This document shows, piece by piece, positions 18,096 through 44,727 of a DNA stretch of 64,000 nt. The translations under genes were made by a program, and so were the position numbers. Under the pieces are notes generated by a model, which searched no databases, was not told the DNA's origin, and saw only the letters and a list, made by a program, of their open reading frames with translations. Every line of letters starts with the position of its first letter. The first letter of the stretch is position 1. This stretch comes from Bacteroidia bacterium (GTDB taxonomy: Bacteria; Bacteroidota; Bacteroidia; DATLTG01), in NCBI GenBank assembly GCA_039924845.1, contig JBDTAC010000074.1:1-64000 (forward strand), given 5' to 3'.

Positions 18096-19805
18096 TTATT
18101 CTGATTTTCGGATATCCTTTAATACCAATTGCAACGAAACGTTTCCGTTCCATTCATTTTCCTCAATAGAATAACAAATATCAAACGATTTTTTTTCTGA
18201 AACGTGTTGATAATATTGCCCCATATTAAATCCAATCGCCGAAAAATTATTTTTTGGAGCGCTTGAATTTCCAATCATTATTTTCAAATGATTTACGCCT
18301 ACAATACTTGGATTTCCGACACTTATAACATTTTTTGAGATAAAAATCGGCGTCATATTTTGCGGACCAAATGGTGCAAATTGTTTTAGCAATCGAAAAA
18401 ATTTCGGCGTAATATCTTCAAATTTTAATTCAGCGTCAATTTCAATTTCTGGCGTTAGCAAACGTTCTTCAATCGTTTCAGAAACAATTTTTTCAAATCG
18501 TTCCATAAAAATTTTCACATTTTCCAATTTCATTGTCAAGCCTGCCGCATATTTATGTCCGCCAAATTGTTCGAGTAAATCGCCGCATTTTTCAATCGCG
18601 TAATACACATCAAAATCTTTTACCGATCGCGCGGAGCCTGTTGCCATTCCTGACGATTCCGTTAAAATAATCGTAGGGCGATAATATTTTTCTATCAAGC
18701 GCGAAGCCACAATTCCGATAACGCCTTTGTGCCATTCGGGATAAAAAAGTACGGTTGTTTTCCTGTCCACCATTTCCGCATCTTCTTCAATCATATCAAT
18801 GGCTTGCTGCGTAATTATGGTGTCGATATTTTTACGTTCCGAATTGGTGATGTTGATGTTTCTACCCGAATCCAATGCGTTTTCTTCTTTCTCCGAAATC
18901 AATAATTCAACGGCTTTTTTTCCGCTTTCCATGCGGCCAGCAGCGTTAATGCGCGGGCTAATTACAAACACAATATCCGTAACGGAAAGTTCTTTTTTGA
19001 GATTATTTAATTGTAAAATTGCTTTTATTCCTGGTCGCGGCGCGGTATTCAACTGTTTCAATCCAAAATGTGCAAGAATTCTATTTTCGCCTACAATTGG
19101 TACAATATCCGCAGCAATACTAATCGCAACCAAATCCAAATAAGCGTTTAATTCACTCGTCGAAAAATTATTTTTTTGAGTGTAAGCTTGCACTAATTTG
19201 AATCCAATTCCGCAACCGGAAAGTTCATCAAAAGGATACGTGCAATCTGCGCGTTTAGGATCGAGCACCGCAACAGCATTGGGAATCTCATCTCCTGGAC
19301 GATGGTGATCGCAAATAATAAAATCGATGTTTTTTTCGTTTGCGTACTTTATTTTTTCATTCGCTTTGATGCCGCAATCCAACGCAATGACGAGCGAAAA
19401 ATTATTTTTTTGAGCAAAATCAATCGCCGCAAAAGAAATTCCGTAACCTTCCGAATAACGATCTGGAATGTAATAATCTATTTGAGAAAATATTTTTTTG
19501 AAAAACGCATAAACCAATGCTACAGCGGTTGTCCCGTCTACATCATAATCTCCGTAAATTAAAATTTTTTCCTTTTTTGCAAGTGCTTTTTCAATTCGCA
19601 GAATGGCTTTGTCCATGTCTTTCATCAAAAAAGGATCGTGTAAAAAACTCAATTGCGGACGAAAATAAAATTTTGCTTCGTCGTAATTGTGTACGCCGCG
19701 TTGCACCAATAAATTCGCTGTTATTGAATCTATTTTGAGTTCTTCCGCCAGATTTTCCACCAACGTTTTATCTCCCGCTTTTTTGATTTCCCAACGTTTT
19801 TCCAT
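18096..19805 (-). CDS. recJ: Single-stranded-DNA-specific exonuclease RecJ
   Basis: 5'-3' ssDNA exonuclease of recombination and mismatch repair; 569 residues from the ATG at 19805 (another in-frame start lies two codons earlier). DHH-family motifs are visible: LIYGDYDVDGTTAVAL (motif I), ALDCGI, ICDHHRPG (motif III) and the DHHA1 motif GGHKYAAGL near residue 412. Three exact copies of the dispersed AT repeat are read in frame, at 18241-18256 (PKNNFSA), 19162-19178 (QKNNFST) and 19396-19412 (QKNNFSL), all in loop regions. It follows the DAHP synthase gene by 19 bp on the same strand. Confidence 0.97.
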   Translation of the reverse strand: MEKRWEIKKAGDKTLVENLAEELKIDSITANLLVQRGVHNYDEAKFYFRPQLSFLHDPFLMKDMDKAILRIEKALAKKEKILIYGDYDVDGTTAVALVYAFFKKIFSQIDYYIPDRYSEGYGISFAAIDFAQKNNFSLVIALDCGIKANEKIKYANEKNIDFIICDHHRPGDEIPNAVAVLDPKRADCTYPFDELSGCGIGFKLVQAYTQKNNFSTSELNAYLDLVAISIAADIVPIVGENRILAHFGLKQLNTAPRPGIKAILQLNNLKKELSVTDIVFVISPRINAAGRMESGKKAVELLISEKEENALDSGRNINITNSERKNIDTIITQQAIDMIEEDAEMVDRKTTVLFYPEWHKGVIGIVASRLIEKYYRPTIILTESSGMATGSARSVKDFDVYYAIEKCGDLLEQFGGHKYAAGLTMKLENVKIFMERFEKIVSETIEERLLTPEIEIDAELKFEDITPKFFRLLKQFAPFGPQNMTPIFISKNVISVGNPSIVGVNHLKIMIGNSSAPKNNFSAIGFNMGQYYQHVSEKKSFDICYSIEENEWNGNVSLQLVLKDIRKSE

Positions 19806-28007: not shown

Positions 28008-29870
28008 ATGTTTAAAAAATACGATGTTATAGTTGTTGGTGCCGGTCATGCTGGTTGCGAAGCTGCCGCTGCTGCTGCCAATATGGGATCTTCTGTTTTG
28101 CTTATCACGATGAATATGCAAACAATAGCCCAAATGAGTTGTAATCCTGCAATGGGCGGTATTGCAAAAGGACAAATTGTACGAGAAATTGATGCTTTGG
28201 GTGGATATTCCGGAATTGTAACTGATAAAACGGCTATTCAATTTCGAATGTTGAATCGCTCGAAAGGTCCTGCCATGTGGAGTCCTCGCGCACAAAGTGA
28301 CCGTTTACGCTTCGCGGAAGAATGGCGTTTAATGCTCGAAAGCACTCCTAATGTTGATTTCTGGCAAGATATGGTGAAGGGATTGCTTGTCAAAAACAAC
28401 AAAATAGAAGGTGTTGTAACAGGCATGGGTGTTGAAATCTTCGCGAAAAGCGTAGTACTTACCAATGGTACTTTTTTAAATGGAATTATTCATATCGGAG
28501 AAAAACAATTTGGAGGAGGAAGAACGGGAGAAAAAGCCGCGACAGGAATTACGGAGCAATTAGTATCGTTGGGTTTTGAAAGCGGTAGAATGAAAACTGG
28601 TACACCTCCCAGAATTGATGGAAGATCTCTTGATTATTCGAAAATGGAAGAACAAGCCGGAGATGAAAATCCTGCTAAATTCTCTTATACAGATACAAAA
28701 GCACTTACTAAACAAAAAAGTTGCTACATTACTTATACCAACGAGGAAGTACATGAGATTTTAAGAACAGGATTTGAGAAATCTCCTATGTTTCAAGGGC
28801 GCATAAAAGGTTTAGGTCCGCGTTATTGTCCAAGTATCGAAGATAAAATAACTCGTTTCGCAGAACGTACACGCCATCAAATATTTGTAGAGCCCGAAGG
28901 TTGGAATACGATTGAAATTTATGTGAACGGATTTTCTACTTCCTTGCCAGAGGATGTTCAATATAAGGCACTTAAAAAGATTCAGGGTTTTGAAAACGTT
29001 AAAATGTTCCGACCGGGATATGCCATCGAATACGATTATTTTCCACCTCAACAACTTTCGCTTACACTGGAAACAAAATTAATTGAAAATTTATTTTTCG
29101 CAGGACAAATTAACGGAACAACTGGTTACGAAGAAGCTGCTTGTCAAGGTTTAATGGCAGGCATTAACGCACATTTAAAAGTCGCTGAAAAAGATTCTTT
29201 TATTTTACAACGTTCCGAAGCATATATCGGTGTATTGATTGATGATTTAGTAACGAAAGGAACGGACGAACCTTATCGGATGTTTACTTCACGTGCAGAA
29301 TACAGAATTTTATTGCGCCAAGATAATGCTGATATTCGACTAACTCCTAAATCACACGAATTAGGTTTAGCAGATGATAAACGTTTGGAAAAAGTAAAAA
29401 TTAAGCTAAAACAAACGCAAGAAATCATACATTATTTTAAACAAGAAAGTATCGATCCGTCTGAAATAAATCCTGTTTTAGAAACGATTGGCTCTTCTCC
29501 AATTACTCAAAAAGTAAAAATGTTTGGTGTTTTAACGCGACCAAATATTCAACTTTCTGACTTCGCGATTCATTCTGAAAAGGTTAAAGATTTTATTTCT
29601 AAATACGATTTGGACAGTTTGGAACAAGCCGAAATTTTAATGAAATACGAAGGATATATTTCGAGAGAAAATGAAATGGCGGAGAAACTAACTCGCTTGG
29701 AAAATTTAATTTTACACGATGACTTTGATTACAAACAACTCACTTCTTTATCATTAGAAGCTCGAGAAAAGCTTTCAAAAATTAAACCAAAAACAATCGG
29801 ACAAGCATCTCGAATTAGCGGAATAAACCCTTCGGATATTTCTGTTTTAATGGTTTATTTAGGAAGATAA
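28008..29870 (+). CDS. mnmG: tRNA uridine 5-carboxymethylaminomethyl modification enzyme MnmG (GidA)
   Basis: FAD-dependent enzyme that, with MnmE, installs the cmnm5 group on wobble U34 of tRNA. The 620 residues match the family. The FAD site VIVVGAGHAGCEAAAAAA is at the N-terminus; CNPAMGGIAKGQIVREIDALGG and the C-terminal ASRISGINPSDISVLMVYL are conserved family segments. A GidA-type gene is often near oriC, and here it is followed within 7 bp by a parS-like site. mnmE is not in the window. Confidence 0.98.
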   Translation: MFKKYDVIVVGAGHAGCEAAAAAANMGSSVLLITMNMQTIAQMSCNPAMGGIAKGQIVREIDALGGYSGIVTDKTAIQFRMLNRSKGPAMWSPRAQSDRLRFAEEWRLMLESTPNVDFWQDMVKGLLVKNNKIEGVVTGMGVEIFAKSVVLTNGTFLNGIIHIGEKQFGGGRTGEKAATGITEQLVSLGFESGRMKTGTPPRIDGRSLDYSKMEEQAGDENPAKFSYTDTKALTKQKSCYITYTNEEVHEILRTGFEKSPMFQGRIKGLGPRYCPSIEDKITRFAERTRHQIFVEPEGWNTIEIYVNGFSTSLPEDVQYKALKKIQGFENVKMFRPGYAIEYDYFPPQQLSLTLETKLIENLFFAGQINGTTGYEEAACQGLMAGINAHLKVAEKDSFILQRSEAYIGVLIDDLVTKGTDEPYRMFTSRAEYRILLRQDNADIRLTPKSHELGLADDKRLEKVKIKLKQTQEIIHYFKQESIDPSEINPVLETIGSSPITQKVKMFGVLTRPNIQLSDFAIHSEKVKDFISKYDLDSLEQAEILMKYEGYISRENEMAEKLTRLENLILHDDFDYKQLTSLSLEAREKLSKIKPKTIGQASRISGINPSDISVLMVYLGR

Positions 29871-29876
29871 AAACAT

Positions 29877-29892
29877 TGTTCCACGTGAAACA
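29877..29892. other. parS-like centromere site 1
   Basis: TGTTCCACGTGAAACA differs from the ParB consensus TGTTTCACGTGAAACA by one base. It lies between mnmG and the methyltransferase gene. Confidence 0.8.
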
Positions 29893-29915: not shown

Positions 29916-30806
29916 ATGGAAACTTTAACTCATTGTCCGGCTTGCGAATCAGATTCATTTACGCCATTTTTATCTTGCAAAGACAATACTGTTTCACGTG
30001 AAACATTCCAAATTGTCGCTTGCGCCAAATGCGGCTTTAAGTTCACAAACCCCCGTCCAGAAGAAGCAAATTTGGGCGATTATTATAAATCTGAAGACTA
30101 TATTTCGCATTCCAATTCCTCCAAAGGATTCATTAATTCCATCTATCAATTTGTCCGAAAATACACCTTAATTAAAAAACTACAGTTGGTAGAAAGATTA
30201 AATCGCGGGAACAAAAAGAACATTTTGGACATCGGTTGTGGAACTGGAGAATTTTTAAATATCTGCAAAAAAGCGAAATGGAATACCTTCGGAATTGAAC
30301 CCGGAAGTGATGCTCGGAAATACGCTTCCGAAAATTATTTTTTGAACGTAAAAGAAGAAGCAGAACTAAAAGATTTCTCCAATAATCAATTCGAAATAAT
30401 TACCATGTGGCATGTTTTGGAACACGTTTCAAAACTAAACGAACGTATTTTAGAACTCAAAAGATTACTCAAAAAAGACGGAACTTTACTAATTGCCGTT
30501 CCGAATTGTTCTTCCTTAGACGCAAAAATTTACAAGCAATTTTGGGCAGCTTACGATTTGCCGAGACACCTTTATCATTTCACGCCAAAAGACATTGAAT
30601 TTATTTTTGCCAAGCACGAAATGAAAGTAACGCAAGTTTTGCCAATGCGCTTGGATTCATTTTACGTTTCTATGTTAAGTGAAAAATACAAGCGTGGAAA
30701 TTCCAATTTTATATTGGGATGTTGGAATGGATTTCGTTCCAATATAAACGCCATTAAATCTGGAAAAGAATTTTCGAGCCAAATTTATATCATCAAAAAT
30801 AAATAG
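29916..30806 (+). CDS. SAM-dependent methyltransferase with N-terminal zinc ribbon
   Basis: A 296-residue class I methyltransferase. An N-terminal zinc ribbon uses two Cys pairs (CPACESD and CAKCGFKF). The SAM motif I is ILDIGCGTGEFL near residue 104, motif II/III follows as ITMWHVLEHVSKL. The substrate is unknown; the zinc ribbon family often acts on sugars, lipids or small molecules. It starts 45 bp after mnmG. A perfect parS-like site (29990-30005) is embedded in codons for TVSRET, and a variant AT repeat around 30331 is read as ENYF. Confidence 0.82.
   Translation: METLTHCPACESDSFTPFLSCKDNTVSRETFQIVACAKCGFKFTNPRPEEANLGDYYKSEDYISHSNSSKGFINSIYQFVRKYTLIKKLQLVERLNRGNKKNILDIGCGTGEFLNICKKAKWNTFGIEPGSDARKYASENYFLNVKEEAELKDFSNNQFEIITMWHVLEHVSKLNERILELKRLLKKDGTLLIAVPNCSSLDAKIYKQFWAAYDLPRHLYHFTPKDIEFIFAKHEMKVTQVLPMRLDSFYVSMLSEKYKRGNSNFILGCWNGFRSNINAIKSGKEFSSQIYIIKNK
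29990..30005. other. parS-like centromere site 2, inside a coding region
   Basis: Exact TGTTTCACGTGAAACA, 98 bp from site 1. It encodes part of NTVSRET in the methyltransferase N-terminus, between the two zinc-binding Cys pairs. Confidence 0.85.
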
Positions 30807-36738: not shown

Positions 36739-37179
36739 TTATTTAAGATCTATCTTTTCTACTCTTCCACAATGTCTTCCGCCTTCAAATGCTGTTTTAA
36801 AAAAAACATCTACACATTTAAAAGCCTCATCATCACTAATAAATCTGGCGGGTAAAACAATTATATTCGCGTCGTTGTGTTGTCGCGCGAGTTGAGCAAT
36901 TTCTTCTTTCCAACACAAAGCGGCTCTAATTCCGGCGTGTTTATTCGCTGTCATATTAATTCCATTTCCGCTTCCGCAGATTAAAATGCCTCCGGAAATT
37001 TTTTTTTCGGCAACTTCTTTTGCAACTAAATGTCCGTAATCCGAGTAATCGGCGCGTTCTTCAGAATGTGTTCCGAAATCTTTTATTTCAAAATTTTGTT
37101 TTGAAAGATGTAACTTTATTTTTTCTTTTAATGCAAAACCAGCATGGTCGGAACCGATTGCCAAAAATTTTTTTTCCAT
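36739..37179 (-). CDS. rpiB: Ribose 5-phosphate isomerase B
   Basis: A 146-residue RpiB/LacAB enzyme interconverting ribulose-5-P and ribose-5-P. The start is the ATG at 37179; a longer open frame reaches into the candidate origin but lacks family similarity. Motifs are AIGSDHAGFALKEKI at the N-terminus, DFGTHSEERADYSDYGHLVA and ILICGSGNGINMTANKHAGIRA, the last with the substrate-binding Cys and GSG loop. It forms a putative operon with the LutB-like gene. Confidence 0.95.
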   Translation of the reverse strand: MEKKFLAIGSDHAGFALKEKIKLHLSKQNFEIKDFGTHSEERADYSDYGHLVAKEVAEKKISGGILICGSGNGINMTANKHAGIRAALCWKEEIAQLARQHNDANIIVLPARFISDDEAFKCVDVFFKTAFEGGRHCGRVEKIDLK

Positions 37180-37616
37180 GGTACAATAATACCGAGAAAT
37201 CCTAAACCGTTCTTTATCAACACAAAAATATATAAACAAGTTTTGTGTTGATAATTTTAAAAAATCGTTATTAAATTTTTTTTTTTTCTGAACAATTATT
37301 GAATTCTTATTTCTCTTATCAAATTAAAACTAATTGGAAAATATTTAAACTTTATTTTACATCATTTTAATAACAAGTTTTTAGTAATTTTATACTGTCA
37401 AAAGTGGTTTCTTTTACCAACAAATAAGTTATTACTTGATTGTTTATAAAAGTGAATTATTTTAAAAATCAGTACTTTATCTATTTCTAAAAAGTAAAAT
37501 ATTGTTCTTAACTTTTAATAAATCATAAATACTATCAAAACAAAATTATTTTATAAACCATTTCAACACGCTATTATTACTACTATAATTATTAAAAAAT
37601 AAAATATAAATATATT
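37180..37616. other. Candidate replication origin: AT-rich gap with inverted DnaA-box-like pair
   Basis: 437 bp without genes between divergent rpiB and nadA. At 37214-37227 and 37241-37254 lie exact inverted arms TTATCAACACAAAA and TTTTGTGTTGATAA; their outer nine bases TTATCAACA match the DnaA box TTATCCACA with one change. To the right, about 360 bp of strongly AT-rich sequence could be a duplex unwinding region. The two parS-like sites are about 7 kb away. Promoters for both flanking genes must also lie here, so the repeat could instead be an operator. Confidence 0.45.
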
Positions 37617-38600
37617 ATGTTGTTAAAACCTAAAAAGTTTTTTTCAGAAAGCGATATTGATTTATCCTTAGATTTGTTCGAGGAAATAAACAAACTGAAA
37701 AAAGAAAAAAATGCCGTTATACTTGCCCATTACTACCAAGAAGCCGATATACAGGACATTGCTGATTTTATTGGAGATAGTTTGGCTTTGGCGCAACAAG
37801 CTGTAAAAACGCAAGCCGACATAATTGTTTTTGCAGGAGTTCATTTTATGGCGGAAACGGCAAAAATAATTAATCCGAAAAAGAAAGTTTTATTGCCGGA
37901 TTTGAAAGCAGGATGTTCGCTCGCAGATTCTTGTCCACCCGAAAAATTTTATAAATTTAAAGAAGAACACCCTGATCATTTAGTGATTTCTTACATCAAT
38001 TGTACTGCCGAAATAAAGGCAATGACGGATATTATTTGTACATCCAGCAACGCTGAAAAAATTGTAAATTCATTACCAAAAAATCAAAAAATTATTTTTG
38101 CGCCTGATAAAAATCTCGGAAAGTATATCATTAAAAAAACGGGTAGAGATATGGTTTTGTGGAATGGATCGTGCATGGTTCACGAAATATTTTCTGCAAA
38201 AAAACTAATTCAGTTAAAAGAAAATTTTCCGGAAGCAAAAATTATTGCGCATCCAGAATGTGAAGAAATAGTGCTTCAATATGCTGATTTTATTGGTTCT
38301 ACATCCGCTTTATTAAATTATACGAAAAACGAAAAATCAAATACATTTATCGTAGTAACGGAATCGGGAATTATTCATCAGATGGCAAAAAATTCTCCAG
38401 AAAAAATATTTATTCCAGCGCCACCAGATAATAATTGCGCATGTAATGATTGTCCGCACATGAAATTAAATACACTCGAAAAATTATATTTATGCATGTT
38501 AAATGAAAGTCCAGAAATAAAATTGAGCGAAGAAATTTTAGCGAAATCAAAAAAACCAATTGATAAAATGCTCGAATTATCTGCTAAATTTGCTTTATAA
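37617..38600 (+). CDS. nadA: Quinolinate synthase
   Basis: A 327-residue 4Fe-4S enzyme making quinolinate from iminoaspartate and DHAP in NAD synthesis. Family motifs are [50 protein letters not shown] and the C-terminal [18 protein letters not shown], whose Cys residues bind the cluster. The length matches the NadA form without an extra C-terminal part. It is 17 bp to the right of the AT-rich region, and its stop (TAA) overlaps the following open frame by one base. nadB is not in the window. Confidence 0.96.
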
Positions 38601-38605
38601 TGTTT

Positions 38606-38620
38606 GAAAAATTATTTTTT
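38606..38620 (-). repeat. Dispersed AT palindrome between two possible starts
   Basis: Exact core in the 20 bp between an ATG overlapping the nadA stop (38600) and the preferred ATG at 38621. If the first is used, it encodes EKLFF. Confidence 0.85.
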
Positions 38621-40183
38621 ATGAATGTCTTTTTAAGAAAGAAAATTTTATTTTTAGGACTATTTTGTTTGATTTTTTCGAGTGCATTTTCGCAAGATGA
38701 AAAACAAGTACAAAATGGATATCAAAAATATTATTACGCCAATGGAGCTATTTCCAGCGAAGGAACTATATTGGACGGAAAACCCGATGGATATTGGAAA
38801 ACATTTTATCAAAACGGGCAAATAAAATCACAAGGAAATCGTAAAAATTTTCTGTTGGACAGCACATGGCAATTTTACAACGATAAAGGATTGTTGCAAC
38901 TCGAATACAATTATTCGAAAGGAAAAAAGAACGGATTTAAAAATACGTACGTGACAGACAGCACAAAATCGGTTTTATCGGCACGAGAAAATTATGTGAA
39001 TGACGTAAAACAAGGTGAAAGTTACACGTATTACAAAGACGGAAAGGTGCATGAAAAAATTAATTTTTTGGATGGTGCTGAAAGCGGAATGTCTTACGAA
39101 TTTGCGGAAGATTCAACTATTATCTCTTTAGTAGAATACAAAGCAGGATTTATAAAAAGTAGAGAAAAAATAAATCGTAGAGATAAAAATAATTTGAAAG
39201 ATGGAGTTTGGAAAACCTTTTATGCCAACGGAAATACGAAAACAGAGGGCACTTATTTAGAAGGTAAAAAAAATGGATTTTTTAAAGAATATTCGCAAGA
39301 TGGAAGTTTGGAAAACACAACGGAATATATAGACGATGCGGAACAACACAATGTGCCGGAACTGACAAAATTAGACGAAAGAACGGTTTATTACAAAGAT
39401 GGAAAAGTAGAAGAAACAGGAGGCTACAAAAGTAATTTGCCGGAAGGAATCCACACATTTTATGGAGAAGACGGAAAAATAATCGTATCCAAAATATACA
39501 AAGATGGTATTTTAATGGGAGAAGGAATTTGTAACGAAAACGGATTTAAACAAGGCGACTGGAAAGAATATTACGAAGATCAAAAAATAAAATCAACAGG
39601 AAAATATGTAAACGATATGCGCGAGGGAAGCTGGATTTTTTATTATGAAAATGGAAAAATTATGGAGCAAGGGAAATACGATAAAAAAGGAAAAGAAGAA
39701 GGCGATTGGAAATGGTTTTACAATACCGGAAATATATTGCGAGATGAAAACTATTTGAACGGCTTGGAAGACGGGCCAATGGTGGAATACGACGACAGCA
39801 ACAAAGTAATTACCAAAGGCGAATTTATCGAAGGAAACAAAGAAGGTGCTTGGTTTTATCAGTTAGGCGATTATCGTGAAGAGGGAAATTATAAAGCCGG
39901 AAATAGAGACGGAATCTGGAAATATTATTACAACGAGAATGGAAAATTGCGTTTCGAAGGTAATTTTGTAGATGGAAATCCGGATGGAAAACACACATAT
40001 TATTATCACAATGGAAAAGTAAAAGAAGAAGGAAAATACGTGATGGGAAATAAAGAAGGAGAATGGAAATATTATTCGGACGACGGACAAGTTTACTTGA
40101 CCATCCTTTACAAAAATGGAGTGGAAATAAAATTTGATGGCGTAAAAGTAAAACCAACTCAACAAGATGCCGAAAACGAATAA
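38621..40183 (+). CDS. Exported YwqK/MORN-like repeat protein
   Basis: About 520 residues. I prefer ATG 38621 because it gives a clean signal peptide (MNVFLRKKILFLGLFCLIF). The rest contains about 17 repeats of 20-25 residues following G.W..YY.NGK....G.Y..G...G, the YwqK/MORN-variant pattern (GYWKTFYQNGQIKSQGN, GEWKYYSDDGQVYLTILYKNG). Such repeats bind lipids or proteins or serve as a scaffold; the toxin-antitoxin label attached to some YwqK relatives is not supported here. Its last 17 bp overlap the kinase gene, suggesting co-translation. A joint role in sensing or envelope state is inference. Confidence 0.82.
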   Translation: MNVFLRKKILFLGLFCLIFSSAFSQDEKQVQNGYQKYYYANGAISSEGTILDGKPDGYWKTFYQNGQIKSQGNRKNFLLDSTWQFYNDKGLLQLEYNYSKGKKNGFKNTYVTDSTKSVLSARENYVNDVKQGESYTYYKDGKVHEKINFLDGAESGMSYEFAEDSTIISLVEYKAGFIKSREKINRRDKNNLKDGVWKTFYANGNTKTEGTYLEGKKNGFFKEYSQDGSLENTTEYIDDAEQHNVPELTKLDERTVYYKDGKVEETGGYKSNLPEGIHTFYGEDGKIIVSKIYKDGILMGEGICNENGFKQGDWKEYYEDQKIKSTGKYVNDMREGSWIFYYENGKIMEQGKYDKKGKEEGDWKWFYNTGNILRDENYLNGLEDGPMVEYDDSNKVITKGEFIEGNKEGAWFYQLGDYREEGNYKAGNRDGIWKYYYNENGKLRFEGNFVDGNPDGKHTYYYHNGKVKEEGKYVMGNKEGEWKYYSDDGQVYLTILYKNGVEIKFDGVKVKPTQQDAENE

Positions 40184-43100
40184 GAAAAAAATTTCGCAAC
40201 CTACACCAAAAAATAAAATTTTCGGTGGAGGATCCTTTGTGGAAGATAATTTGTTTGACAAATTGGCGGAAGCCTCTTTCGATGGCGTTGTTGTTCACAG
40301 AAAAGGAATTATTTTAGCAACGAATCCAATGCTGAAAAAATTATTTGGCTACAAAACAAGTCCGATTGGAAAATCAATAATAGCGTACGTTACTACTGAA
40401 TCGAAAAAAATTGTTTTTGAAAAAGTAAAACAGGACAGCGAAGATAAATACGAAGCTGAAATGTTGAGGGAAAACGGCACAACATTTAATGCCGAATTGA
40501 TAGGAAGGAAAATAATTTATGAAGGAAGACAGGCTCGAGTAACGGCAATTAGAGATATTACAAGTCAAAAAAAATACGAACAAGCACTTAAAAAAAGCGA
40601 AGAAGAATACCGACTTTTATTCAAAGTAAGTCCAGTGCCTATGTTTGTGTATTCCAGAAACACACACAAAATACTGCAAGTGAACGATGCGGCGATAAAA
40701 AAATACGGTTATTCGGAAAAAGAATTTTTATCAAAAACAATCAAAGACATTCGTCCGAAAGAGGAAGCAAAAAAATTAGTTGAGCACGAAAAAAAGAATC
40801 AAAAAGACACCTCAAATGTTAGGTATCACGGACTGTGGAAACACCTAAAAAAGGACGGAAAAATAATTGATGTTGAAATCAGTACTACTTCGATTTATAT
40901 GAATGGAGAAGTTTGTGATTTAACGACTATAAATGATGTTACAGAAACAATCCGAACCAAAAATTTATTGATTGAATCTGAAAAAAATTTTTCGCAAGTA
41001 CTCGAAAAAATAGATGAATTTGTTTATTATTTTGAGTACGATGAAAAAGGACTTCCACAACCAAAATATGTAGGGAGCCAATCTGAAAAATTAATGGGAC
41101 TTACGGTAAAAGAGTATTTAAAATCGGGCTATAAATTATTAGAGGATTGCCATCCGGAAGATGTGGCGCGCATGTTGGCGGCATCAAAAAAAATAAAAAA
41201 AGAAAAGGAGCCGCAGGTAGAAAGGTATCGCTATAAATTAAAATCGTGGAAAGAATACAAATGGATTGAAGAGCGTATTTTCCCGCAAGTAGATGCGAAA
41301 GGAAAACACATCGGCAATTTTGGGATAATGCGAGATGTAACAGAGCAAGCAAAAGCATCTCAAGAAATAGTGCGCGAAAAAGACAAATTAAAACATTATT
41401 TGGATGTTGCTGGCATATTATTGGTGGCTTTAGATGCGAATCAGAACGTGTTGTTGGTCAATCAGAAAGGCTGCGAAGTACTTGGTTATAAAGAAGAAGA
41501 AATTATCGGAAAAAATTGGTACGAACATTTTGTTCCGAAAGTAGAATCAAAAAAGAGGAAAAATAATTTTTTGAAACGTTTTGCAACGGACTCAACTATT
41601 TTCCAAGTTGAAAACGAAATTCTCACAAAAAGCGGTAAGAAAAGAAGGATAGCCTGGAAAGATTCGATTCTTTTTGATGACGACAAAAAGCCAATTGCGA
41701 TGATTTCTTCGGGCGAAGATATTACAGAGAAAAGATTAGCGGAAATCGCTTTGCGTGAAAGCGAATCTCGGTTCAAGCTGCTTTCAAAAGCCACCAATGA
41801 AGGGATCGCTATTATTGATAATGATGGTGTTATTATTGACTCAAACGACCAATACGCCCACATGTATGGGATGAAGGCGGCTTCGGAAATAATCGGCATA
41901 AGTTGCCTGTCTTTAATTGCTCCAGAAAGTAAAAATATTGTCAAAGAAAGAATTGCAAATAATATTTCTGGTCTATACAGGTGTTGGTGTTTAAAAGTAG
42001 ATGGTACAAAATTTTTGATGGAAGTGCATTCGCGAAAAATCCCGTATAATGGATTGGAAGTGCGCATGTCGGCAGTAACAGACGTTACCGAAAGCCAGAA
42101 ATACGAAAATGAGTTGAAGCAAAGTAGAGCAAATTATAAGAGCTTAGTAGACTATTCGCCCGATGGCGTTTTTATTCATGTGGATGGAAAAGTAAAATTT
42201 GCCAATCCAAGTGCACTTCGAATAATAGAAGCAGATAACTTTGAGCAGGTAAGTGAGCAGCTTGTTTTAAAATTTTTATTGCCAGAATATCATACCCTTG
42301 CCATTGATCGAATAAAACAAACGAAAAAAGGACAACTGATGCCTTTTTATGAAGTAAAAGCAACTACGTTAAAAGGGAATAAAATAGAATTAGAAATTAA
42401 GGCGATGCCCATTAAATACAATGGAGAAAATGCCATACAAGTGGTAGTACACGATACTACAATTGAAAAAAACTTTTTAAAAGAACAATTGCGGGCGCAG
42501 GTGGCAGAAGAGCAAAAAGAAAAATTAGAAAGGGAAATAGCTGTACGAAAAAAAATACAGCAAGAACTACAAAAAAGCGAAGAAAAATACCGCGCTATTT
42601 ACGACCAAGCGCATATTGGAATTGCACGTACCGACTTGAAAGGAAAATTTTTGCAAGTGAATCATTATCTCTCGGGAATGCTTGGCTTTACTCAGGAAGA
42701 ATTTGTTGGAAAAAGTGTTCTCGAATATACACATCCAGAAGATGTGCAAAAAACAAAAGAATCATTTACAGAAAAAATTTCCGGAAAAACGGATAAAACA
42801 AGACTCGAAAAAAGATACATTCATAAAAGCGGAAAAAATGTTTTTGTTGAAGTTACCGGATCTGCGATAAAAGATATCGATGGTTCACCGATGTATTTTT
42901 TGAGTGTGATTGAAGATGTAACGGAAAAGCGCGAAAATGAAAAAGAATTGATCACAAAATCTGCAAAAATAAATGCTATTTTTCAAAACTCTTCTCATTT
43001 AATTTATACTGTTAGCAGAGACGGGATTTTAACTTCGTACAACGATAATTATCGCCAAATTACCGAGTTTGCTTATGGCGGAAGCCCGAAAGTGGGTTCG

Positions 43101-43982
43101 CGCTTATTTATTTCATCCTCGAAGGAAAAAAGTATTTCGAAACAATTTTTAGATCAAGCGACGCTATCGCATCAAATCGCGTTGAGCGGTATTTCGCAAC
43201 AATACGAACAGAAAGTTGTAGGACAAGACGGACAAGTTAAATGGTTTGAGATCTCGCTCGATCCGATTGTTTTACCAGACGGAAAAATTGAAGAGGTTTC
43301 GTATATCGCACACGACATAACGGAAAAAAAGGAAAACGAAATACAAATCGGACATTCTTTGCAAGAGAAAGAAGTGTTGTTAAAAGAAGTGCATCACCGT
43401 GTAAAAAACAATTTGCAAGTGATTTCCAGCATTCTCAATTTGCAATCTTCTTCTGCGAAAGATCCCGCTATTTTAGATCTTTTAAAAGAGAGCCAGAATC
43501 GAATAAAATCGATGGCGTATATTCATGAAAACCTATATCGTACCAACGATTTTGCAAATATTAAATTTTCGGAATATTTGATTACGTTGGCCGAAAATTT
43601 AGTGTATTCTTATGCCACGAATAGATGTCCGATAGAATTGAATCTCGAGATAGAAAATATTTTTATTAATTTAGACCTCGCAATACCTTGCGGATTGATT
43701 GTAAATGAATTGATGACTAACGCATTGAAATACGCATTTAAAGATCGGGCAAGCGGAAAAATAACCATTGAATTGAAGGAAAAAAACGAAAGAATAACGT
43801 TGTCAGTCATTGATAATGGGGTCGGTTTTCCGAAAGCAGTGGATTATAAAAACACCGAATCGTTGGGTTTGCAATTGGTGGTTACATTAACAGAACAGTT
43901 GAGCGGCACTATAACGCAGGAAGTCAATAATGGCACACGTTTCAGTATAGAGTTCAATCAAAAAACCAAAAAAAATGGGTAA
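40167..43982 (+). CDS. Multi-PAS sensor histidine kinase
   Basis: A 1271-residue kinase without clear membrane helices, so it is probably cytoplasmic. I count eight PAS domains (roughly residues 25-130, 145-265, 275-395, 400-520, 525-645, 650-770, 805-925, 935-1050). The histidine kinase core has the HisKA_2 type motif HHRVKNNLQVISSILNLQ near residue 1070, an N box in CGLIVNELMTNALKYAF, and G boxes around DNGVGFPKAV. It overlaps the MORN-like gene by 17 bp and the LytTR regulator by 8 bp, so the three genes are coupled. Several PAS copies with different ligands or partners may integrate signals. An exact AT repeat at 41558-41573 is read as RKNNF. Confidence 0.9.
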   Translation: MPKTNKKKISQPTPKNKIFGGGSFVEDNLFDKLAEASFDGVVVHRKGIILATNPMLKKLFGYKTSPIGKSIIAYVTTESKKIVFEKVKQDSEDKYEAEMLRENGTTFNAELIGRKIIYEGRQARVTAIRDITSQKKYEQALKKSEEEYRLLFKVSPVPMFVYSRNTHKILQVNDAAIKKYGYSEKEFLSKTIKDIRPKEEAKKLVEHEKKNQKDTSNVRYHGLWKHLKKDGKIIDVEISTTSIYMNGEVCDLTTINDVTETIRTKNLLIESEKNFSQVLEKIDEFVYYFEYDEKGLPQPKYVGSQSEKLMGLTVKEYLKSGYKLLEDCHPEDVARMLAASKKIKKEKEPQVERYRYKLKSWKEYKWIEERIFPQVDAKGKHIGNFGIMRDVTEQAKASQEIVREKDKLKHYLDVAGILLVALDANQNVLLVNQKGCEVLGYKEEEIIGKNWYEHFVPKVESKKRKNNFLKRFATDSTIFQVENEILTKSGKKRRIAWKDSILFDDDKKPIAMISSGEDITEKRLAEIALRESESRFKLLSKATNEGIAIIDNDGVIIDSNDQYAHMYGMKAASEIIGISCLSLIAPESKNIVKERIANNISGLYRCWCLKVDGTKFLMEVHSRKIPYNGLEVRMSAVTDVTESQKYENELKQSRANYKSLVDYSPDGVFIHVDGKVKFANPSALRIIEADNFEQVSEQLVLKFLLPEYHTLAIDRIKQTKKGQLMPFYEVKATTLKGNKIELEIKAMPIKYNGENAIQVVVHDTTIEKNFLKEQLRAQVAEEQKEKLEREIAVRKKIQQELQKSEEKYRAIYDQAHIGIARTDLKGKFLQVNHYLSGMLGFTQEEFVGKSVLEYTHPEDVQKTKESFTEKISGKTDKTRLEKRYIHKSGKNVFVEVTGSAIKDIDGSPMYFLSVIEDVTEKRENEKELITKSAKINAIFQNSSHLIYTVSRDGILTSYNDNYRQITEFAYGGSPKVGSRLFISSSKEKSISKQFLDQATLSHQIALSGISQQYEQKVVGQDGQVKWFEISLDPIVLPDGKIEEVSYIAHDITEKKENEIQIGHSLQEKEVLLKEVHHRVKNNLQVISSILNLQSSSAKDPAILDLLKESQNRIKSMAYIHENLYRTNDFANIKFSEYLITLAENLVYSYATNRCPIELNLEIENIFINLDLAIPCGLIVNELMTNALKYAFKDRASGKITIELKEKNERITLSVIDNGVGFPKAVDYKNTESLGLQLVVTLTEQLSGTITQEVNNGTRFSIEFNQKTKKNG

Positions 43983-44727
43983 AACAAACATTTTTATCGT
44001 TGAGGACGAAAGCATTGTTGCAAAAGACCTTCAACAAAGTTTAAAAAAATTGGGTTATAATGTAGTTGGAATTGCTGCTTCTGGAGAGGACGCCATTAAA
44101 CAAGTGGAAGAAAAAATGCCCGATTTGGTTTTCATGGACATTATGTTGAAAGGTGAAATGAGCGGAATTGACGCGGCAAATCACATTCGTGCCACTTCCA
44201 ATATTCCCGTGATCTTTTTAACGGCTTATGCCGACGAAAGCACGCTCAGTAAAGCAAAAATTTCTGAACCTTACGGATATATCATCAAGCCCTTCAAAGA
44301 AATTGATTTATATACCTCCATTGAGCTGGCTTTGTATCGTAACGAAAAAATAAAAGACGTTAAAAAAGAACGCGATTTTTTGTATTCCATCGTCGAAAAT
44401 AAAGATACACAAGATGTTATTTTTGTGAAATCAAATTCGCGTTTAATAAAGCTTCGTACGGAAGAAGTTTATTATATTGAAGCCTTGAAAGATTACGTGG
44501 TTATCAACACTTCCAACAACCGTTACACTATTCATTCTACGATGAAAGATATCGAAAAAAAATTCTCTCCATCCGAATTTATTCGCGTACACCGCTCGTT
44601 TATTGTGCGAATCGATAAAATTGTTGCCATCGATCATTACAATGTGATTATGGAAGACAACAAAAAGGAAATTCCTGTCGGCGGCTCCTACAAAGAAGAA
44701 TTAGCAAAACGATTGAATTTAATTTAG
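43975..44727 (+). CDS. LytTR-family response regulator
   Basis: A 250-residue response regulator. The receiver domain (about 4-120) has Glu-Asp acidic residues in FIVEDESIVAK, phospho-acceptor Asp in DLVFMDIMLKG near residue 55 and Lys in YIIKPFKEIDLY. The LytTR DNA-binding domain (about 145-250) contains VYYIEALKDYVVI and FIRVHRSFIVRIDKI. It overlaps the kinase by 8 bp, so it is almost certainly its partner. Targets are unknown. Confidence 0.93.
   Translation: MGKTNIFIVEDESIVAKDLQQSLKKLGYNVVGIAASGEDAIKQVEEKMPDLVFMDIMLKGEMSGIDAANHIRATSNIPVIFLTAYADESTLSKAKISEPYGYIIKPFKEIDLYTSIELALYRNEKIKDVKKERDFLYSIVENKDTQDVIFVKSNSRLIKLRTEEVYYIEALKDYVVINTSNNRYTIHSTMKDIEKKFSPSEFIRVHRSFIVRIDKIVAIDHYNVIMEDNKKEIPVGGSYKEELAKRLNLI

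Follow-up and report, generated by a model that had tools for sequence, protein, structure and literature searches.

Locating the replication origins of Bacteroidota is difficult, since these origins are situated away from dnaA and carry DnaA boxes that can deviate from the E. coli consensus; in Bacteroidetes, oriC is commonly far from dnaA (PMC4755523). The question raised here was whether the intergenic region between rpiB and nadA (positions 37180-37616) in the window, i.e., the whole 64,000-nucleotide stretch of DNA analysed, is such an origin, as an earlier note had tentatively proposed. The contig to which the window belongs measures 76.5 kb and is one of 101 unordered contigs that make up a 2.66-Mb draft genome; the relatives retrieved for comparison were all genomes of the same class. 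The proposal gained support from the sequence elements of the region, from the conserved position together with mnmG and parS sites that are unique in the genome, from the conserved box positions and spacing, from a box-plus-trio module adjoining nadA, and from the skew switches of relatives. We conclude that the rpiB-nadA intergenic region is very probably the chromosomal oriC of this Bacteroidota bacterium.

Sequence elements between rpiB and nadA

The divergent flanks were confirmed, as both rpiB (ribose-5-phosphate isomerase B; 36739-37179, minus strand, start codon read from the sequence) and nadA (quinolinate synthase; 37617-38600, plus strand) scored above curated cut-offs. The named best matches of NadA were from Bacteroidota, and a leftward rpiB pointing away from a rightward nadA recurred in many relatives. 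The 3' side of nadA (window positions 38600-44727) is occupied by a single rightward gene run, which encodes a protein with MORN repeats, a histidine kinase of 1271 aa with multiple PAS domains, and a LytTR response regulator.

An exact 14-bp inverted repeat (37214-37254), unique in the genome, was present as previously reported, with arms at 37214-37227 and 37241-37254 separated by 13 nt. It contains two putative DnaA boxes, TTATCAACA on the plus strand (37214-37222) and the same word on the minus strand (TGTTGATAA on the plus strand; 37246-37254). The claim that these were the only two box-like sequences was an undercount, since further ones were found at conserved positions: ATATAAACA (37230-37238, plus strand), which falls inside the loop of the inverted repeat, TGTTTATAA (37441-37449; putative box TTATAAACA on the minus strand), and the abutting TTATAAACC and ATTTCAACA (37551-37568). 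Exact matches to TTATNMACA within the intergenic region numbered only three, all of them inside 240 bp; the whole 76.5-kb contig has 8. When the region was subjected to 3000 dinucleotide shuffles, 0.5% of them contained a 14-bp inverted repeat, 0.03% an inverted TTATNMACA pair, and likewise 0.03% three or more TTATNMACA boxes (P 0.0003). The intergenic region thus holds a cluster of DnaA boxes, one of the features expected of an oriC; at the genome density of this motif (373 in 2.66 Mb) an occasional cluster of this kind may occur by chance somewhere. The stray TTATCAACA inside recJ at 18205, mentioned in the earlier note, was indeed there, but it was not alone, as a second single copy was found at 44501.

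Inverted TTATNMACA pairs of such type occurred only four times in the whole 2.66 Mb. Another of them, TTATCAACA-6-TGTTGATAA (G000:C98:14989-15012), lies directly upstream of a tiny gene for a histone H1-like, Lys/Ala-rich protein (MAKKVVKKAAAPKKK...) and could be a DnaA-regulated or DnaA-titrating site. Two more pairs were also intergenic (L222, G000:C28:46596-46637; L223, G000:C89:49736-49755), one of them between divergent genes with signal-peptide-like starts.

The extremely AT-rich stretch of about 360 bp described after the inverted repeat was also recovered. The proposed unwinding zone (37256-37616) has 84% A+T (15.8% GC over 361 bp). Positions 37253-37612, likewise at 15.8% GC, form the 360-bp stretch with the highest AT content in the window; the next stretch of this length has 25.8% GC. 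AT-rich DNA suited to an unwinding element therefore adjoins the boxes.

A module overlooked by the earlier note spans 37551-37595, next to nadA. It consists, on the plus strand, of two abutting putative boxes, TTATAAACC (37551-37559) and ATTTCAACA (37560-37568; usually RTACTAACA in relatives), a short G/C spacer, CGC (37569-37571), and a run of DnaA-trio-like repeats, TAT TAT TAC TAC TAT AAT TAT TAA (37572-37595). This layout recalls the basal unwinding system (BUS), which was defined in the oriC of Bacillus subtilis (PMC6669920) and has been predicted in most bacterial origins by searching for a DnaA box, with at most 2 mismatches, within 16 bp of three or more NAN trios (PMC8287927). Here a spacer of 3 bp separates the box from eight NAN trios. 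Although TTATAAACC has 1 mismatch to TTATAAACA and ATTTCAACA has 2 mismatches to TTATCAACA, both show 3 mismatches to the strict TTATCCACA, above the limit of PMC8287927 unless a species-specific box is used. The trios mostly end in T or C (TAT/TAC), whereas the consensus has G or A, as in the TAG/TAA trios of three relatives (L004, L006, and L106). The module gave a P value of 0.0005 in shuffles and was the only plus-strand match in the window, with one minus-strand match at 41812, values to be read bearing in mind that AT-rich DNA readily yields trio repeats.

Conservation of boxes and spacing in relatives

For 19 rpiB/nadA loci, 75 other Bacteroidota loci and 15 control loci (cyanobacteria and one Ignavibacterium), all TTATNNACA words within 600 bp upstream of nadA were counted. 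TTATNMACA was over-represented 5- to 7-fold upstream of nadA in Bacteroidota (42 vs. 8.0 expected in the rpiB/nadA loci and 131 vs. 19.5 in the other loci), whereas in the 15 controls it was not above chance (1 vs. 1.3 expected). Nearly all over-represented TTATNNACA forms had A or C at position six. The most frequent forms in the rpiB/nadA group were TTATTAACA (12 occurrences) and TTATCAACA (10), against about 1.2 and 0.3 expected, respectively, while TTATCCACA was the top form in the other Bacteroidota (34 vs. 0.4 expected). These word counts indicated that TTATCAACA is a normal box of the group; the single mismatch that had been regarded as a weakness is hence no sign of degraded boxes, TTATCAACA and TTATTAACA being the usual forms. 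The canonical TTATCCACA was absent from the window, and close direct pairs of TTATNCACA were absent from the genome. The densest array among relatives was found in L009 (G038:C128), with sixteen boxes (at most 1 mismatch) in about 320 bp upstream of nadA.

Inverted box pairs were scanned at every gap from 0 to 30 in the 19 rpiB/nadA loci. A 9-7-9 pair scoring at least 16 of 18 positions was present in 12 of the 19 (vs. 0.26% of shuffles), about 380-500 bp upstream of nadA, and no other gap exceeded 5 of the 19. In the window the conserved pair is formed by ATATAAACA (37230) as left half and TGTTGATAA (37246) as right half, the latter being also the right half of the 14-bp repeat, plus one outer box that most relatives do not have; the 14-bp repeat arises because this extra TTATCAACA at 37214 precedes the 9-7-9 pair by 16 bp. 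The TGTTTATAA at 37441 aligned with a reverse box that relatives carry about 200 bp before nadA.

The layout proximal to nadA was also maintained in relatives, where a pair of abutting 9-mers is followed by a short G/C spacer and a trinucleotide run; thus, TTTTGAACC ATACTAACA CGC TAGTAATAGTAATAG in L004 aligns with TTATAAACC ATTTCAACA CGC TATTATTACTACTAT in the window. The motif YYAACA[CG] occurred in the last 200 bp before nadA in all 19 rpiB/nadA loci (2.3 expected), and the complete combination of box, G/C spacer and four trios in 7 of the 19 (0.03 in shuffles) and in 8 of the 75 other Bacteroidota loci (0.00 in shuffles).

Gene order, GC skew and other readings of the locus

The parS pair said to lie about 7 kb away was verified as two perfect sites, TGTTCCACGTGAAACA (29877-29892) and TGTTTCACGTGAAACA (29990-30005), about 7.2 kb from the region, and no further parS with up to 1 mismatch was found in the 2.66 Mb; parS sites are therefore near the candidate origin. 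Beside them lies mnmG (gidA; 28008-29870, plus strand), an origin-linked gene whose proximity to nadA and parS is conserved in the class. In many Bacteroidota mnmG occurred with parS within about 10 kb of nadA, and this arrangement was conserved across the class.

The skew switch of relatives with near-complete chromosomes was placed with 20-kb samples, and finer breakpoints were obtained from third codon positions corrected for gene strand. At sampling resolution, the switch from negative to positive GC skew fell in the interval containing nadA in G034, G056, and CP079103, i.e., at the site homologous to the one studied here, with dnaA at 410 kb, 1.0 Mb, and about 0.8 Mb from nadA, respectively. 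The third-codon breakpoint of CP079103 was at 5616 kb (nadA start at 5617.5 kb) and that of G039 at 11-12 kb (nadA start at 11.4 kb, box cluster at 11.56 kb), although in G039 another breakpoint, nearly equal to the first, falls at 34-35 kb and only 10 kb separate dnaA from nadA. The breakpoint of G034 (1341 kb) was about 10 kb off nadA (1330.5 kb), with no strong box cluster there.

The inverted pair and the nadA-proximal motif might instead be operators or promoter elements of nadA or rpiB, involved in NAD or sugar regulation, a possibility already raised in the earlier note. It is true that the promoters on either side of the region are divergent and that the distance between the motifs and nadA is constant; nevertheless, a conserved operator fits less well, as the boxes were not above chance upstream of cyanobacterial nadA, the motifs belong to the DnaA-box family, and the skew of relatives switches at the nadA locus. 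In addition, among long Bacteroidota loci, at least one box was present in 26 of the 29 that have parS or mnmG no more than about 10 kb away, but in only 4 of the 15 lacking them at this distance, a split that was chosen after a weak result with parS only (P 0.048) and in which the box-less loci also have higher GC content. This distribution favoured an origin over a nadA operator, and we consider the operator explanation improbable.

Alternatively, the origin could be elsewhere, next to dnaA, which is on a different contig (C73) from the window, or at another site near mnmG and parS. The skew of the draft genome itself is noisy: the raw cumulative minimum on the contig of the window was at 38.0 kb, while the strand-corrected third-codon test, noisy here, gave no origin-like switch on this contig, its best change being 4.7 with the wrong sign. 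Five other contigs of the genome displayed third-codon changes of 12.7-30, of either sign, and therefore the skew of this genome neither supports nor refutes the proposed oriC. For the same reason, the origin-like third-codon signal near dnaA, at 50 kb of C73, which was weak (permutation P 0.036), does not count as evidence that replication starts at that site, since equal or larger changes occurred on those five contigs; this candidate was not accepted, the calibration indicating that the test is uninformative in this genome. Moreover, no TTATNMACA box flanks dnaA, C73 lacks parS, its strand-corrected skew averages +0.074 ± 0.014, as expected within one arm, and three relatives have their skew switch far away from dnaA. 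An origin away from the rpiB-nadA region thus appears even less probable than an operator.

The reading of the inverted repeat as an RNA hairpin or transcription terminator, with the AT-rich DNA as an ordinary long spacer, is the least credible: the arms could pair in a transcript and, of the four inverted pairs in the genome, one is just upstream of a small basic protein gene, but the region is upstream of both rpiB and nadA, and two relatives (L019 and L068) keep only the 9-bp boxes and not the longer stem. Searches for an RNA element returned no Rfam and no tRNA match.

Proposed initiation mechanism and relation to known origins

Under the preferred reading of the region as oriC, DnaA probably binds here, melts the DNA and initiates replication. 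The organism's own DnaA has a complete ATPase domain and an intact domain IV that aligns with a solved DNA-binding domain structure (1j1v). This protein, encoded on another contig, would bind the upstream boxes (37214, 37230, and 37246), the intermediate box (37441) and the abutting boxes adjoining nadA (37551-37568). A DnaA-ATP filament would nucleate on the abutting boxes and extend rightward over the trio-like repeats (37572-37595) towards nadA, stretching one strand and melting the AT-rich DNA so that helicase could be loaded. The distal upstream boxes may deliver further DnaA by looping, and ParB would act at the two parS sites, 7 kb away, to segregate the newly formed origins.

The arrangement resembles the BUS of B. 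subtilis (PMC6669920, PMC8287927) in its two adjacent DnaA boxes, short G/C spacer and trinucleotide repeats with a central A, as well as in having distal boxes able to act by looping. It differs in that the boxes are weaker (1-3 mismatches), the trios read TAT/TAC more often than the consensus 3'-GAT-5', and the region is not beside dnaA. The origin of Prevotella intermedia OMA14 and the DoriC entries treated in PMC4755523 likewise have their DnaA boxes where the skew switches, and far away from dnaA; in contrast, the available text of that article does not name nadA or rpiB as neighbours, and the boxes in the group of the window are mainly TTATYAACA rather than the E. coli consensus.

The locus of Chitinophaga sp. 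CP079103 is similar in its position upstream of nadA, near mnmG and parS, in its several boxes, and in a skew breakpoint within about 2 kb of nadA, but its boxes are mostly the canonical TTATCCACA, with other spacings, and there is no rpiB beside nadA. In the same replicon (Chitinophaga sp. E66), five TTATNMACA, mostly GTGGATAA on the plus strand, are clustered at 5625.6-5626.1 kb, about 8 kb past nadA; this cluster was rejected as an origin, as it appears to sit in coding sequence, and could be a DnaA-titration array. In this complete genome, dnaA (108782-109266) is split into two overlapping parts that are read in different frames, one of them containing a stop, which points to a frameshift or a sequencing error.

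More tentatively, Bacteroidota might share an undescribed nadA-linked type of oriC, with a shifted box (TTATYAACA), an inverted box pair of fixed 9-7-9 spacing located about 400 bp upstream, and an unwinding module whose end comes within tens of bases of nadA, a generalization that we regard as doubtful. No paper describing such a type in Bacteroidota was found in a search that did not extend to DoriC or subscription journals. If it were true, origin melting and transcription of a gene for NAD synthesis could influence each other.

An origin is in itself an expected object, and the value of the finding resides in its conserved address and layout across the group. With the rpiB-nadA-mnmG-parS synteny, the TTATYAACA boxes, the 9-7-9 pair and the box-plus-trio module as a guide, oriC can be located in draft and metagenome-assembled genomes, which is of use for read-depth estimates of growth rate and for the design of minireplicons; these conserved markers also open the trio-unwinding model to testing in a phylum that has been little studied.
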